From Woeseiaceae bacterium (GTDB taxonomy: Bacteria > Pseudomonadota > Gammaproteobacteria > Steroidobacterales > Woeseiaceae), in NCBI GenBank assembly GCA_030065985.1, contig JASJCM010000003.1, positions 32,683-96,682 on the forward strand: a stretch of 64,000 bases of DNA. The letters run 5' to 3'. Every line of letters starts with the position of its first letter. Position 1 is the first letter of the stretch. This document shows positions 33,336 to 64,000 of the stretch, in pieces. A program made the position numbers and the translations under genes. The notes under the pieces were generated by a model. The model made no database searches. It was not told the DNA's origin and was given only the letters and a program-made list of their open reading frames with translations.

Positions 33336-33509
33336 TCTGTCCTTGTATACCTGAGAGATCAATAGCCTGGGATACCCCCTGCCACATACCCCTTCGGTGG
33401 GCCATTCAGGCCTCTCTCCAGAGCTGATCAGCGAACGCAGTCCTTCTGCCTGAGCGTTTCCGAGCGAGTTGCGCCTTCGGCGCCCCGATTCAACGGGGTC
33501 TCTTCTGCG
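33335..33509 (-). promoter_or_regulatory. Tandem glycine riboswitch upstream of gcvT
   Basis: Two consecutive glycine aptamers read on the minus strand. Aptamer I spans 33509-33436, with P1 CGCAG/CTGCG, the core GGCGCCGAAGGCGCAA and the 3' block AACGCTCAGGCAGAAGGAC. Aptamer II spans 33423-33335, with P1 CTCTG/CAGAG, CCACCGAAGGGG and ATCTCTCAGGTATACAAGGAC. The second aptamer runs directly into a terminator. By family precedent glycine binding prevents termination and switches the cleavage operon on. Confidence 0.95.
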
Positions 33510-33610
33510 GCCGCTATTGATCAGTGGTCGAATCATAGCCAATGCCCCAGCCGGTTGCCACCGGCAACCCGGACGGTGACAATGCGTGCTCCATAAATCA
33601 GGGGCTTGGC

Positions 33611-46197: not shown

Positions 46198-46387
46198 GGC
46201 GCTTCCTGCGGTGTTCGATACCGACCTGGATTACTTTCGACCCTAAATCATTACCTCGGGGTCGTGCACTGTCGGCAGCATTTGAGCAGGGCCGTAGAGA
46301 CGGTAAGCCTGTTGCGGCCACGGCTGACCCCACCTGTTGCTCCGGTTCGAGAGCGACGGCTCGGTAACGGCACAGGCGGGAAGCGCC
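46198..46387 (+). ncRNA. ssrS: 6S RNA
   Basis: The 240-bp gap between zapA and fau carries a structured RNA with closing helix GGCGCTTCC (46198-46206) pairing with GGAAGCGCC (46379-46387). The internal blocks CTGCGGTGTTCG near the 5' end and CACAGGCGGG near the 3' end fit the closing stem and bulge of 6S RNA. The length of about 190 nt and the zapA-ssrS-fau order are typical. 6S RNA sequesters sigma-70 RNA polymerase in stationary phase. The ends are set by the outer helix and may be off by a few bases. Confidence 0.9.
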
Positions 46388-59043: not shown

Positions 59044-59105
59044 GGCGGGAAGTTTCGCACAGACGAAAGGCGGACTGCGATCCGTGCTCTAGTTTTGGCC
59101 ACCCG

Positions 59106-59174
59106 CCGCTTCTGGCCGTGAGCCGCCAGTCCGGAGTCCTGAAATTGATTGACTGCTACTGGCCAATAGCAGCC
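59106..59174. repeat. Degenerate relative of the 72-bp cassette repeat
   Basis: Two blocks, CCGCTTCTGGCCG with a following AGCCGCC (59106-59127), and the inverted repeat CTGCTA...TAGCAG around TGGCCA (59153-59172), share words with the repeats at 61.8-63.8 kb. The central ATGAC block is missing. It occupies the 169-bp gap between the hydrolase start and the FG-GAP gene stop. Confidence 0.4.
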
Positions 59175-59212: not shown

Positions 59213-61486
59213 TCAGTACACGTAGACTGCGCCGACCTCGACACCGTTATTGTTGTTGGGAGGCGGGCCGATACCGTTGAATGTGCTTCGCTCATACGTT
59301 GCGCCAACCGCAAGCGTATCGCCGTCGCCGCTGAGCGCCACGTCGGTTCCAAATCGATCCGCTTCGTCGGTGTTGCTCGCCTTGAGGTAGGCAATCTGAC
59401 TCCAGGTGCTGCCGGATCGAGAAAACACGTACGCGGCGCCTGCGTCGTTGCTTGAGTCATCGGACTGGTCGCCGTCAATGCCCAGCGCATTGCTGTTCTC
59501 GAACATGGCGCCCACGGCGAGCAGATCGCCATCATCGCTCAGGCTCACACCCTGACCAAACTGATCACCACTCCCTGTGTTGCTGGCCTTGATGTACGCC
59601 TCCTGTGCCCAAGCGCCGGCCGCGCGCTGAAACAGATATACCGCGCCCGAGTTGCCGGCACCGCTGCTACTTTGGTCGCCGCTGACACCCGTCGCGTCGC
59701 TGTCTTCGTTGACAGCGGCGACCGCCAGCGTGTCGCCGCCACCGCTCAAGTGCAGGCGTTGCGCGAAGCGGTCTTCCCGATCGGTGTTGCTTGCCTTGAG
59801 GTACGCCTCCTGCGTCCAGGTTGTACCCGAACGCGTAAACACGTATGCCGCTCCTGATTCAAACGCCGAGTTATCGTTCTGGTCGCCGTTGATGCCTGTC
59901 GCGTTGCTGGCTTCGCGCACGGCCGAAACAGCCAGTGTGTTGCCGTCATCACTGATGCTGATCTCTCCACCAAAGGCGTCGCCGAAGCCCTGGGAGTCGC
60001 CATTGCCCGTGTTGCTGGCCTTGATGTAGGCCTGTTGCGCCCAGCCGCTGCCGTCATTGACAAAAACATACACGGCACCCGCGAGACTCACTGAGTTATC
60101 AGTCTGGTCCCCGTCAATGCCAACCGCTGCGCTTTCCTCACCGAATGCACTAACGGCAAGCGTGCTGCCGTCAGCACTCAGGGCAACCTGCGCCCCAAAA
60201 AGATCCACAGGGCCCGTATTGCTCGCTTTGATGTAAGCTTGCTGGCTCCAGGTATTGCCGGTTCTTACGTACACGTAAACAGCGCCCGACGAATCGGCCG
60301 TGTTGTCCGTCTGGTCGCCGTCGATGCCGGTTGCGGCGCTGTCTTCGCCCGTCGCGCCGACAGCCAGTACGGTCGCGTCATCGTTGATGGCGATGTCCCC
60401 GCCGAACTGATCGTCGCTCTCGGAATTGCTCGCCTTGATGTAGGCCTGTCGCTGCCATGCCGTGCCCTGGCGCTCATAGACGTACACGGCGCCCGCTTCG
60501 GCTGCACTGTCATCAGACGGGGCGCCGTTGATGCCGGTTGCGGCGCTGTCTTCGAGGCGCGACCCAACGATGAGGAAACTGCCGTCGTCGCTGACGACCA
60601 CGTCCTCGCCAAATCGGTCCCTGGAATCCGGAGCGTCGGCTTTGAAGTAGCCGATACCGTCGGAGAGGTTGCCCGATACCGCCTGAGGCGCGGTATCCGT
60701 GCAGCCTCCGGGGCTGCAGCTTTGCAGTACGTAGAGGGCGTTGCTGCGCGCATACAAAGGCGCCAAAATTTCGAGACTGCCGACGCCCGGCGCAATATCA
60801 CCGCCCACCTGGGTGAATCCCGCGCTGCCCGTCGGGTTTTCGAGCAGGCGGTAGAATGTGGCATCGGCGACATCGGTCCACGTGAAGCCAAAGGTCTTGA
60901 TCGGCGTGATGCTCGACGACAACGCGGCCGCAGTCGCTGGCGGCGGCCCGGGCACAAACGTGGCCGTAATGGTGCAGTCCGAGGTCACTGGCGCGGTCGT
61001 ATAAATCGTGCCCGACAGGCTGCCCGCGCAACCCGTAACGCTGCCAATTGCATAGCCGGTATCCGGTGTAATGACGAAGTCCGCAGCGTCATTCTGGTTC
61101 ACGACAGCGCTGGTGGGGCTGATGGCACCATTGGGGCCAGCGCTTGCTGATACCGTGAACGCCTCAACAAATGTCGCGGTGACGGTGCACGCGCCCGTAA
61201 CGGCACCGGTTGTGTAGGTGCTGCCGCTCAAAGAGCCGTTGCACCCGCTCACGCTCGCGATCCCGAAACCGCTGTCCGGCGTAATCGTGAAGGTCGTCGA
61301 GGCGCCGCCCGTGACTGTTCTGCTCCCCGGGCTGATGGTGCCATTGGCACCGGCATTCGTACTGACGGTGAAGCTCTGTGTGGGTGTGCTGCCGCCACCG
61401 CCACCCCCGCCCCCACAGGCGCTTGCAAAGACGACGCTGAGCGCCACGATGGTTCGCGCTATTTTTGTTCCTGTATCGAAGTTCAT
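59213..61486 (-). CDS. FG-GAP beta-propeller lipoprotein with B-repeats
   Basis: A 757-residue surface lipoprotein. The lipobox is ASAC (Cys24), followed by a run of glycines. Two InlB-like B-repeats (about residues 38-107 and 110-180; the word GANGTISPGSRTVTGG and its copy PNGAISPTSAVV) precede an FN3-like segment and seven FG-GAP repeats of about 65-70 residues, each near AYIKASNTGSGDQFGQ...LAVGA...GAVYVY. Seven blades fit a closed propeller. The last blade ends at the C-terminus (GAVYVY). GGGGGG serves as ribosome-binding site. A role in adhesion or surface binding is inferred. Confidence 0.85.
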   Translation of the reverse strand: MNFDTGTKIARTIVALSVVFASACGGGGGGGGSTPTQSFTVSTNAGANGTISPGSRTVTGGASTTFTITPDSGFGIASVSGCNGSLSGSTYTTGAVTGACTVTATFVEAFTVSASAGPNGAISPTSAVVNQNDAADFVITPDTGYAIGSVTGCAGSLSGTIYTTAPVTSDCTITATFVPGPPPATAAALSSSITPIKTFGFTWTDVADATFYRLLENPTGSAGFTQVGGDIAPGVGSLEILAPLYARSNALYVLQSCSPGGCTDTAPQAVSGNLSDGIGYFKADAPDSRDRFGEDVVVSDDGSFLIVGSRLEDSAATGINGAPSDDSAAEAGAVYVYERQGTAWQRQAYIKASNSESDDQFGGDIAINDDATVLAVGATGEDSAATGIDGDQTDNTADSSGAVYVYVRTGNTWSQQAYIKASNTGPVDLFGAQVALSADGSTLAVSAFGEESAAVGIDGDQTDNSVSLAGAVYVFVNDGSGWAQQAYIKASNTGNGDSQGFGDAFGGEISISDDGNTLAVSAVREASNATGINGDQNDNSAFESGAAYVFTRSGTTWTQEAYLKASNTDREDRFAQRLHLSGGGDTLAVAAVNEDSDATGVSGDQSSSGAGNSGAVYLFQRAAGAWAQEAYIKASNTGSGDQFGQGVSLSDDGDLLAVGAMFENSNALGIDGDQSDDSSNDAGAAYVFSRSGSTWSQIAYLKASNTDEADRFGTDVALSGDGDTLAVGATYERSTFNGIGPPPNNNNGVEVGAVYVY

Positions 61487-61760: not shown

Positions 61761-61835
61761 GACCGCTTGTGGCCGTATCCAGCAATATAAGCGTTTTCAG
61801 GTACGATGACGCCTACTGACCCATAGCGGCCGGTC
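61761..61835 (+). repeat. Cassette repeat, copy 1
   Basis: 75 bp with ends GACCG and CGGTC. Block A is GACCGCTTGTGGCCG. Block B, GTACGATGACGCC, begins 25-26 bases later and contains a start codon at 61806 for a six-residue frame MTPTDP. Block C is AGCGGCC. It precedes the gene at 61867 by 31 bases. Confidence 0.75.
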
Positions 61836-61866
61836 GTCGCTGACTAGATCTCTCGCGGATAATACT

Positions 61867-62289
61867 ATGCGAACAGCATGTCTACTGATTGGCTTGATGG
61901 CAATGATGTCCACACTCGACACGAGTTTGGCGTCGGACGAGCCACACGTCGATCCGTCATTGGTCACCGTTCTAACTTCTGGAACTCACCGTTTCCTTCT
62001 CTACAGGCATTGTGACGCTGAGTTTTGCTGGAGCGAGGCGTATCTGCAATGGATGGACGTAAAAGCCAAACCAAACAAGGTGCACGAGACTGTTCCCATA
62101 TCCGAAATCTCGAAGCCCATGATGGTTTTCGATGCAAAACTGCATTGGGACGGTGACACGCAGGAACAATGGATAGAGATGCGGGGAACCGCTCACCCGG
62201 CGATGAGCTTCATTGGGACGGCTGTTATAAAGCCGCGCGATGCTGGACAGTACGATTTCGAATCAAACATCGCGAAGATCTCGAACTAG
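61867..62289 (+). CDS. Hypothetical exported protein (array gene 1)
   Basis: A 140-residue protein with a signal peptide (LLIGLMAMMSTLDTSLAS). The mature domain includes VLTSGTHRFLLYRHCDAEFCWSEAYLQW, with two cysteines that could form a disulfide. No family recognised. It is bounded by cassette repeats on both sides. Confidence 0.7.
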   Translation: MRTACLLIGLMAMMSTLDTSLASDEPHVDPSLVTVLTSGTHRFLLYRHCDAEFCWSEAYLQWMDVKAKPNKVHETVPISEISKPMMVFDAKLHWDGDTQEQWIEMRGTAHPAMSFIGTAVIKPRDAGQYDFESNIAKISN

Positions 62290-62304
62290 TTGTGCCATGC
62301 CGAT

Positions 62305-62376
62305 GTCCGCTTTTTGGCCGTTTGCCACCGGACAGGGGTAACAAGTTAGAATGACGCCTTCTGATGCAGAGCGGTC
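62305..62376 (+). repeat. Cassette repeat, copy 2
   Basis: 72 bp. Block A GTCCGCTTTTTGGCCG, block B GTTAGAATGACGCC at the same 25-base spacing, block C AGCGGTC. The ATG at 62351 opens a 30-codon frame beginning MTPSDAERS that runs past the next gene's ATG and stops at 62443. Confidence 0.75.
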
Positions 62377-62427
62377 GATCGAGAGCACCGCCTTTTCTGG
62401 AACTGACACGGGTCGTTTAGCGCAGCG

Positions 62428-63138
62428 ATGGACAACTCAATAGACCGAACCGTAGACGGACGTTTGTCTCTTCGTTCCGCGGCGCTGATCGCTGGGTTCG
62501 GTTTGCTAATCATGGCGATCTGTGCGCCGCTTGCCTTTTTCCAGCTCTTACCTCAGGGCATCGTGCGCGGAGATGGGGCCGCAACCGTCGAGCGATTGCG
62601 CACGAATGGGACACCCTACCTGCTCGGTACGTACCTCCTGTTCCTGACGTACGTCATGGATGTCGTGGTTGCATGGGCACTGTATTGGCTCTTACGCCCG
62701 GGTCAGAAAGCTCTCTCGTTGCTCGTGGCGTGGATGCGAATCGTATACACAGCGTTGGCCTTTATGGGTTTGATGGCCTACTTTCATGCTTATGATCTTG
62801 CCAATGCGACAGATTTCGCCATGCTCGCCGACGCGACTGGCTTGCAAGCCGAGATCCTTTACCAGTTGTTCGCAGCCCAGACTACCACGAGCGTCGCGCT
62901 CACATTTTTCGGCGTTCACCTACTCGTGATGGGAGTGGTCATTTGGCGATCGACTCATATCCCACGTTGGACGGGCATCGCAGTGGCGTTAGCCGGTGCT
63001 GCCTACGTGATCTTGTACGGTGCACAGTATTTCGCCCCGGATCTCTCACTGGATTGGCTGATGCTCTTTGCGCTAGGTGAGCTCATCTTTATGGGCTGGA
63101 TGCTGATTTCAGGATGGCGCCTGGAAGAAACGGTATAA
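62428..63138 (+). CDS. DUF4386 family membrane protein (array gene 2)
   Basis: A 236-residue protein with six or seven transmembrane helices. RLSLRSAALIAGFGLLIMAI, LFLTYVMDVVVAWALYWLL and LLVAWMRIVYTALAFMGL fit DUF4386, a family of unknown role. It starts 51 bases after repeat copy 2 and ends 34 bases before copy 3. Confidence 0.85.
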   Translation: MDNSIDRTVDGRLSLRSAALIAGFGLLIMAICAPLAFFQLLPQGIVRGDGAATVERLRTNGTPYLLGTYLLFLTYVMDVVVAWALYWLLRPGQKALSLLVAWMRIVYTALAFMGLMAYFHAYDLANATDFAMLADATGLQAEILYQLFAAQTTTSVALTFFGVHLLVMGVVIWRSTHIPRWTGIAVALAGAAYVILYGAQYFAPDLSLDWLMLFALGELIFMGWMLISGWRLEETV

Positions 63139-63172
63139 GTCGAACTCACGAAGCGCCACAGCGGGATTCGGG

Positions 63173-63243
63173 GTCCGTTATTGGCCGTAACCGGCTGGCC
63201 AGGCGTTTCAAGGTAGCATGACTCCAACAGACCCTTTGCGGCC
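63173..63243 (+). repeat. Cassette repeat, copy 3
   Basis: 71 bp. Block A GTCCGTTATTGGCCG, block B GGTAGCATGACTCC, block C TGCGGCC. The ATG at 63218 opens a 15-codon frame MTPTDPLRPFESEQV whose TGA shares a base with the ATG of the following GNAT gene. Confidence 0.75.
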
Positions 63244-63264
63244 ATTCGAATCGGAGCAAGTGTG

Positions 63265-63696
63265 ATGCATGCAATGTCCATTCATGAAGCCTCGGCCGCT
63301 GAGAATCCCGACATTGCCGCATTCTATGAACGCTGTGGGTACTCCGGCGGTATTTCATCTGACGACACAGTTCTGGTTGCCATTCGAGCTGATTCGCTTG
63401 TCGGAGTTGTACGCCTGTGCTCGGATCACCACGCTACTGTTCTTAGGGGAATGCAAGTATCTTCGGACGTTCAGAGACAGGGAATCGGTCGAGCTTTACT
63501 CGAAGAGTGTCTGTCCAGAGTCAGCGATGCTGTCTGTTATTGTATTCCGTGGTCCTATTTGGAGCAGTTCTACAGTTCAGGTGGGTTTCGGCGTTGCGAA
63601 TCAACGGACGTTCCCGGATTCCTTTCGGAGCGGTATGACGGCTACATCCAACAGGGTCGAGACGTGATCCTAATGCGGCGGGCACTTTCGAACTGA
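63265..63696 (+). CDS. GNAT family N-acetyltransferase (array gene 3)
   Basis: 143 residues. VLRGMQVSSDVQRQGIGRALLEECLS is the acetyl-CoA-binding motif and YLEQFYSSGGFRRCE is typical of small GNAT proteins. ATG 63265 has GGAG 9 bases upstream (63252-63255). The substrate is unknown. Its stop lies inside repeat copy 4. Confidence 0.85.
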   Translation: MHAMSIHEASAAENPDIAAFYERCGYSGGISSDDTVLVAIRADSLVGVVRLCSDHHATVLRGMQVSSDVQRQGIGRALLEECLSRVSDAVCYCIPWSYLEQFYSSGGFRRCESTDVPGFLSERYDGYIQQGRDVILMRRALSN

Positions 63697-63766
63697 CCGG
63701 CCGCTCTCGGCCGAAACCCGCCGCTCAGGTTTCTTGAGGTAGGATGACGCCTTCCGAATCGGGGCC
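63695..63766 (+). repeat. Cassette repeat, copy 4
   Basis: 72 bp beginning at the GNAT stop codon. Block A GACCGGCCGCTCTCGGCCG, block B GGTAGGATGACGCC at the same spacing, block C GGGGCC, three bases closer than in the other copies. The ATG at 63744 opens a 33-codon frame beginning MTPSESGPG that overlaps the GTG start of the next gene. Confidence 0.75.
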
Positions 63767-63834
63767 AGGAAGTCAGTTGCTTGCCGCTCCACTCATGCTA
63801 ATTGTTGGCCGGGATCAGATAAGGGGTATTGATC

Positions 63835-64000
63835 GTGAAGGATGATGCATTGTGCTGGGAGAAGGTGGCTAGTCAGGCAGGGCCCGAGCTACCTCTTTTT
63901 CGTGTTCGCTTTGATACTATGCGTCACCCTACCAGTTCAGAGGAATTCCAACGTTTGGTGTTGGAAACGTCAGATTGGGTGACAGTCGTTGCTGTAACTA
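63835..64000 (+). CDS. NUDIX hydrolase-like protein (array gene 4, cut by window)
   Basis: Only the first 55 codons are present, from GTG 63835 with AAGGGG 8 bases upstream. The sequence CWEKVASQAGPELPLFRVRF and VLETSDWVTVVAVT resembles the N-terminus of NUDIX hydrolases of the ADP-ribose-pyrophosphatase type. The NUDIX box itself would be beyond the right edge, so this is tentative. Confidence 0.6.
   Translation, partial: MKDDALCWEKVASQAGPELPLFRVRFDTMRHPTSSEEFQRLVLETSDWVTVVAVT

Follow-up and report, generated by a model that had tools for sequence, protein, structure and literature searches.

An array of single genes at a contig end

Here we describe a cassette-like gene array at the right-hand end of a 64,000-nucleotide stretch of DNA (the window) from a member of the Woeseiaceae. 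The window (G000:C83:32683-96682) stops at the last base of contig C83, beyond which this assembly offers no continuation of the array, and the draft genome to which it belongs (G000) comprises 2.77 Mb in 86 contigs and is 84% complete. The array consists of short genes, all on the same strand, alternating with copies of a directional 71-bp repeat. The original prediction, which was made from the letters of the window alone, had placed four repeats here; a repeat model and a pattern check recover all four at those positions, on one strand and with three short conserved blocks (A, B and C) in the same order. The array and its components are arranged as follows:

59105-59174, + strand: degenerate fifth repeat copy, left of the array (nhmmer, 48 bits; model R1, 22.7 bits)
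61761-61831, + strand: repeat copy 1, start of the array (repeat model and nhmmer)
61867-62289, + strand: cassette gene 1, 140 amino acids (aa), likely exported (signal peptide by eye), no Pfam family
62305-62376, + strand: repeat copy 2, 15 bp past the stop of gene 1
62428-63138, + strand: cassette gene 2, 236 aa, DUF4386 family (Pfam PF14329, E 9.4e-37)
63173-63243, + strand: repeat copy 3, 34 bp past the stop of gene 2
63262-63696, + strand: cassette gene 3, 144 aa, GNAT acetyltransferase family (Pfam PF13508, E 1.2e-12)
63695-63766, + strand: repeat copy 4, sharing 2 bp with the stop of gene 3 (nhmmer, 63699-63758)
63829-64000, + strand: cassette gene 4, 57 aa visible, truncated by the contig end, no Pfam match

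The distances from stop codon to next repeat (15, 34 and -2 bp) agree with the predicted range of -2 to 34 bp. Two of the predicted gene identities, DUF4386 (E 9e-37) and GNAT (E 1e-12), hold; a NUDIX protein is not confirmed for the 57-residue end fragment, which matches no family. Block B taken alone is poorly discriminating: with three mismatches allowed it matches the window 16 times against 13.3 expected, which is not beyond chance. Its three zero-mismatch matches all lie inside the array.

A family of clustered, co-directional repeats

The original prediction had proposed a profile search of the genome and its relatives. A profile trained on the four array copies yielded 35 further matches in G000, one of them (the degenerate fifth copy) in the window, giving 39 matches at E <= 10 and 32 at E <= 1e-3. 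The consensus of the 39 copies (nhmmer, nine fetched stretches) is GnCcGCTTnTGGCCGnaAgCnGCCgncCaGGngtTTTGAGGTAGgATGACngCTaCTGACCCAnAGCgGnC. Rather than being scattered singly through the genome, an outcome that would have spoken against a cassette system, the 39 matches cluster on nine contigs (C83, C4, C31, C7, C77, C42, C29, C45 and C58); C45 and C58 carry a single repeat each, at the contig end, and the other copies are mostly clustered. All oriented copies within a contig point the same way. On each of the nine contigs the outermost repeat lies no more than 528 bp from the contig end, where random placement predicts 3%, and arrays ending contigs in this way would be expected if co-occurring strains differ at these places.

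A second model (R2) was built from 35 repeat copies, which have a mean column identity of 66%. At E <= 0.01, it matches 35 of the 36 other genomes sampled in the genus (in G004 and in G017 through a single weak match) and 10 of 23 genomes from other families of the order. A strict repeat pattern occurs at 17 loci, of which 10 are labelled Woeseiaceae and 7 Gammaproteobacteria, and has no exact match in viral contigs. Several strong repeat matches were also seen in two genomes of the class from other families (G286:C20:74-2952, and several contigs of G070), in neither of which the recombinase described below has a match. Within the repeat, four 7-bp half-sites can be named (GNCYGCT, AGCNGNC, GNCNGCT and AGCRGNC), which match on average 79-88% of their fixed positions.

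One gene per repeat

Stretches of 19 genomes were taken, 16 of which yielded intervals between neighbouring repeats of at least 28 bits. We scored the 149 intervals that measured 150-2500 bp; 47 intervals of other lengths and 13 without orientation were excluded. Open reading frames (ORFs) of at least 60 aa were counted after removal of those overlapping a repeat by more than 45 bp. Exactly one ORF was found in 121 intervals, none in 2 and two to four in 22, and the remaining 4 were bounded by opposed repeats. By comparison, 510 of 2860 random repeat-free intervals of equal lengths contained exactly one ORF. The single genes (median length 160 aa) lie on the strand of the repeat in 114 of 121 cases, with medians, for these 114, of 25 bp from stop to next repeat and 32 bp from repeat to start. 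Adjacent single genes of the arrays share an orientation in 49 of 57 cases, against 219 of 351 for adjacent flank genes. In G000 itself, 21 of 25 intervals hold a single gene.

The cargo is diverse. Among 28 proteins scanned from G000 are GNAT, glyoxalase, HIT, signal peptidase, pentapeptide, SIR2-like and DUF families, most of them seen in one protein only, and the 407 near-repeat ORFs of the 19 genomes include only 31 homologous pairs. The predicted arrangement, unrelated single genes between directional repeats, is real. As far as sequence can establish it, we are dealing with one repeat family, with one gene per repeat on a shared strand, with diverse cargo and with arrays on many contigs.

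The repeats are not attC sites

Among well-described bacterial systems, to our knowledge, only integrons keep single genes in store as exchangeable cassettes. The arrays share with them cassettes of one gene each, on the same strand and each followed by a site. The original prediction had nonetheless suggested that the array, perhaps another kind of gene-cassette system, is not an integron, having seen neither attC cores nor an integrase, and the data bear this out: none of 35 repeats contains the RYYYAAC...GTTRRRY pair, compared with 5 of 11 true attC sites of G031 and none of 5000 random stretches, and the repeats are clustered. G031, which belongs to the same genus, contains a genuine integron (L096:10073-17896) in which 11 canonical attC sites adjoin a broken intI, and these sites are unrelated in sequence to the repeat. 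In G000, XerC and XerD are the only proteins among the Phage_integrase matches and the integron integrase model TIGR02249 has no match at E <= 1e-30, an absence that is not final because the assembly is 84% complete.

Nor do the repeats fold as attC sites would. Single-strand folding of the window copies is not better than that of shuffles, RNAalifold predicts no pairs across 35 copies, and covariation does not maintain the long stem that the inverted symmetry would suggest (68.2% paired, compared with 70.9% in shuffles). Two local hairpins show a covariation that 7 of 500 shuffles equal, but shifting the partners by +3 gives a higher score. Stem pairing that is not maintained would fit half-sites that are read as double-stranded DNA. 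An ordinary integron cassette cluster that has lost its integrase (cluster of attC sites lacking integron integrases, CALIN) would likewise present genes on a single strand, each with its own site, but with 0 of 35 repeats carrying the core pair that is present in 5 of 11 control sites, and with no conserved long-range stem, this explanation is hardly credible. With no IntI found either, the ordinary integron and CALIN were rejected.

Another possibility is that an integron integrase of the genus, or XerC/XerD, acts on the sites in trans. Integron integrase matches are present in 16 of 60 relatives, and both xer genes are present in G000. However, neither the own-genome model nor six variant models find the repeat in stretches around six intI loci, the attC sites of G031 are unrelated, and intI matches at E <= 1e-30 are absent from the array-rich genomes G010, G027 and G029. 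We regard service by these enzymes as very unlikely.

A small tyrosine recombinase at the head of arrays

Comparison of shared cassettes brought to light a gene, present in G016 (L214:11570-12196) and G027, that encodes a 208-aa tyrosine recombinase. The protein is composed of the catalytic domain only and has no N-terminal core-binding domain. The catalytic signature of tyrosine recombinases (R, H-x-x-R, H, Y) is present, and R59, H156, R159, H182 and Y191 are invariant in 11 aligned proteins that include XerC, XerD and IntI. Its score falls well short of the threshold of each NCBIfam model listed (for the G016 protein, 19 bits against 265 with the IntI model). A structure predicted from a 28-sequence alignment has a predicted local distance difference test (pLDDT) score of 80.1 (35.5 for the single-sequence fold) and matches the structures of XerA, Cre, XerH and IntI.

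The gene is nearly full length in six of 60 relatives, with remnants in three, and a family-wide search found it in 17 of 107 genomes. In G016, G027, G007 and G044, an array adjoins the 5' side of the recombinase gene, and the array genes lead away from it; on the same side in G036, repeats of opposite orientation start. Outward repeats on the 5' side were further found in G449, G488, G470, G457 (L327) and G476; in the first three, genes and repeats also run the opposite way 3' of the recombinase, which thus lies between two outward series. A divergent recombinase at the array head, as in integrons, is seen only in relatives and with a non-IntI enzyme; none is seen in the G000 assembly. Counted over 20 loci, five of which had already been examined, the nearest oriented repeat on the 5' side points away from the recombinase in 10 of 11 oriented loci; the remaining 5' sides have unoriented matches only (2), are cut by the contig (2) or have none (5). 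On the 3' side, all seven oriented repeats within 300 bp point with the recombinase gene.

The genus also contains a subfamily of about 50% identity to the recombinase (L231, L318, L319, L325 and L326), and one locus of such a homologue has an unoriented 17-bit repeat match about 290 bp off. Directly 3' of the stop codon of several recombinase genes lies a hairpin, GCGACCGTC...GACGGTCGC (L313:1551-1600, L314:2106-2145).

In G000, the heads of four arrays (C4, C7, C42 and C58) fall in unassembled sequence, which is where an enzyme at the array head would be placed.

Cassette boundaries and a probable transfer

Among near-repeat genes, 11 close cassette pairs (at least 75% protein identity) were identified. 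Judged by eye, five of them share DNA homology from the 3' part of the upstream repeat onward: two G010 arrays, G023/G036, G016/G027, G012/G027 and, over a short stretch, G027 with a Woeseiaceae record. A script check of these five placed three boundaries 19-32 bp from the 3' end of the repeat, found that the G023/G036 homology runs through the repeat, and could not follow the fifth pair. The downstream repeat lies within the homology for G016/G027, and the G023/G036 homology stops before it. Between G016 and G044, members of different families, one near-repeat gene shows 91% DNA identity across 740 bp (L102:10701-11399, L108:8110-8835), pointing to a recent transfer. Sequence comparison shows that arrays in relatives run outward from a recombinase gene with conserved catalytic residues, and that in some shared cassettes the homology starts within the 3' part of the upstream repeat.

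REP elements, shared homology and promoters

The main rival to a recombination site is suggested by hairpin pairs. In G016, G027, G044 and G010 the repeat approximates, at the level of the consensus, an inverted pair of a 24-nt hairpin (the resemblance is weaker in G000), as in dimers of repetitive extragenic palindromic (REP) sequences. REP dimers, and REPs without a dedicated transposase, are described in PMC3733652. The repeat would then be a REP doublet, akin to the miniature elements known as REPINs (REP doublets forming hairpins) or bacterial interspersed mosaic elements (BIMEs), that was spread by a REP-associated tyrosine transposase (RAYT) or another transposase, and its settling between the genes of foreign islands would account for the spacing of one gene per repeat. 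Two Y1_Tnp genes in G000 and the close succession of stop codon and repeat are in keeping with this, but there is no repeat (E <= 0.01) in the 4 kb around either Y1_Tnp gene (L243, L244), and the array-rich genomes G010, G036, G044, G034, G012 and G025 have no Y1_Tnp match at E <= 1e-5. Moreover, the copies are clustered and co-directional with the genes, and cassette homology can break within the repeat. We consider a REP origin unlikely. Its specific form, a RAYT-driven REPIN, was rejected, as no association was seen in the Y1_Tnp search or around the two Y1_Tnp genes of G000, and the copies in G000 are mostly clustered.

Alternatively, the genes could be those of ordinary islands, and the repeats a promoter or terminator that they have in common, or mere patches of similarity on which general homologous recombination acts. 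The repeats do lie between a stop and the next start, and their core TTTTGAGGTAGGATGAC resembles a -10 region by eye. Yet the array has no sigma-70-like site (1.6 expected) and three terminators (2.5 expected), a mean column identity of 66% over 35 copies makes a poor substrate for homologous recombination, and the recombinase at the centre of arrays is left unexplained. This alternative is distinctly improbable, less so than integrase action in trans and more so than a REP doublet; the promoter role as such was rejected for want of a sigma-70-like site. SE elements were rejected as well, being multi-gene units (PMC9345347).

Rfam, at gathering scores, has no match at the repeat positions. Elsewhere in the window, a glycine riboswitch (33428-33517, - strand) and a 6S RNA (46200-46386, + strand) are found, and the gene immediately left of the array (59213-61486, - strand) encodes an FG-GAP repeat protein with internal repeats of about 207 nt.

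The recombinase beyond the genus

The recombinase belongs to a large family, of which at least 8000 homologues were scored. Matches occur on 438 plasmid records, including those of Pseudomonas, Cupriavidus and Paraburkholderia (for example, pMOL30; L275:3965-4591). Of 50,697 phage records, 3 match; with no match of the strict repeat pattern in viral contigs, a phage origin was rejected. In other families the association with repeats is partial: both recombinase copies of G102 (2.4 Mb, one contig) lie 2-4 kb from the nearest repeat match, and one copy in G228 lies 4 kb from a match. A palindromic hairpin occurs within 350 bp of the recombinase at 3 of 20 other-family loci (two genomes), compared with 0.1 in shuffles; the motif was written after the flanks had been inspected, so that this result is exploratory. 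An ungapped half-site model, whose consensus is smeared, has no match at 11 bits at any of the 20 loci. Among 120 metagenomic homologues listed, most are on contigs shorter than about 3 kb, as if assemblies break there, an observation made without a control.

A proposed model for cassette exchange

Taken together, we lean, with some reserve, towards the view that the window holds the end of a single-gene array and that the repeat is the recombination site of the small tyrosine recombinase, which would exchange cassettes in an integron-like manner. The repeat would correspond to four 7-bp half-sites in alternating direction, that is, to two simple recombinase sites. The recombinase may bind the half-sites and cross over at or near the last one, at the 3' end of the repeat. 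The mobile unit would then be one gene with its downstream repeat, possibly passing through circular intermediates. In G000 the enzyme would either be encoded in the unassembled gaps or have been lost, and the arrays would accordingly be served in trans or be relics. The same applies to the array in the window, which starts at the chromosome side without an enzyme.

Several observations weigh against this view. No recombination event has been observed, and the recombinase was not found in G000 nor in the array-rich G010 and G029 (search of 60 relatives). At the recombinase loci, the 5'-side repeat of G483, beside a recombinase fragment, points toward the gene, that of G462 scores only 10 bits, and the homologues of about 50% identity (in G011, at two G457 loci and at two G465 loci) have no oriented repeat nearby. 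In six of the 11 close cassette pairs, homology stops before reaching the repeat or could not be traced that far; two of these six were assessed by script only. Outside the genus, of ten other-family genomes with the recombinase, four lack any repeat match (E <= 0.1) and in four others all matches lie on contigs without the recombinase; across the class, repeat and enzyme co-occur in 3 genomes against 1.7 expected, which is not significant and comes in part from a search scoring 12 candidates per genome. At 17 of the 20 other-family loci there is no hairpin within 350 bp (one mismatch allowed), and hairpins also occur farther from the gene, 3 in 38.6 kb versus 4 in 14.6 kb near it, about one-third of the density. 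Finally, the surroundings of the gene were read in two of the 438 plasmid records.

A broader proposal, which we put forward tentatively and with rather more doubt than belief, is that of an independent second capture system, in which a catalytic-domain-only recombinase between two outward arrays would insert and excise single genes as double-stranded DNA at a four-half-site repeat, feed satellite arrays elsewhere on the chromosome in trans and pass cassettes between families of Gammaproteobacteria, all without integron parts. In the literature searched, which did not include bioRxiv or most subscription journals, we found no description of the repeat, of arrays in Woeseiaceae, or of the recombinase as a cassette enzyme. 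The arrays themselves are likely a second, integron-like route by which bacteria collect and swap single genes, a route that would be new if borne out by experiment. Such a layout, built on an unrelated enzyme and site, would imply that the cassette strategy arose twice, and Woeseiaceae, which are abundant in marine sediments, would harbour an overlooked mobile gene pool. The size of the recombinase family and its presence on 438 plasmid records make the role of a cassette enzyme directly testable.

Comparison with known systems

The repeats resemble REP, REPIN and BIME elements in being short hairpin units in inverted pairs between genes, but they are arrayed and directional, and a Y1_Tnp search and the surroundings of the loci revealed no RAYT beside them. 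With XerA, XerC, XerD and XerH, the recombinase shares the catalytic fold and residues; unlike them, it is encoded by a separate gene, XerC and XerD both being located elsewhere in G000. FimB and FimE are proteins of about 200 aa without an N-terminal core-binding domain. The recombinase is like these invertases in size and in lacking that domain (28 bits with model PRK09871), but it falls far below the PRK09871 cut-off of 222 bits and is associated with multi-gene arrays rather than with one invertible switch.

The integron (IntI, attI and attC) offers several parallels: cassettes of one gene each, all on one strand and each followed by a site; diverse cargo; a recombinase gene that diverges from the array; two inverted simple sites within each site; and some cassette pairs with a boundary in the 3' part of the site. 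The attC site, too, has been described as a four-core site. The differences are an enzyme of 208 aa with the catalytic domain only, a repeat without GTTRRRY cores or a conserved long stem, and genes that run outward on both sides of the recombinase.

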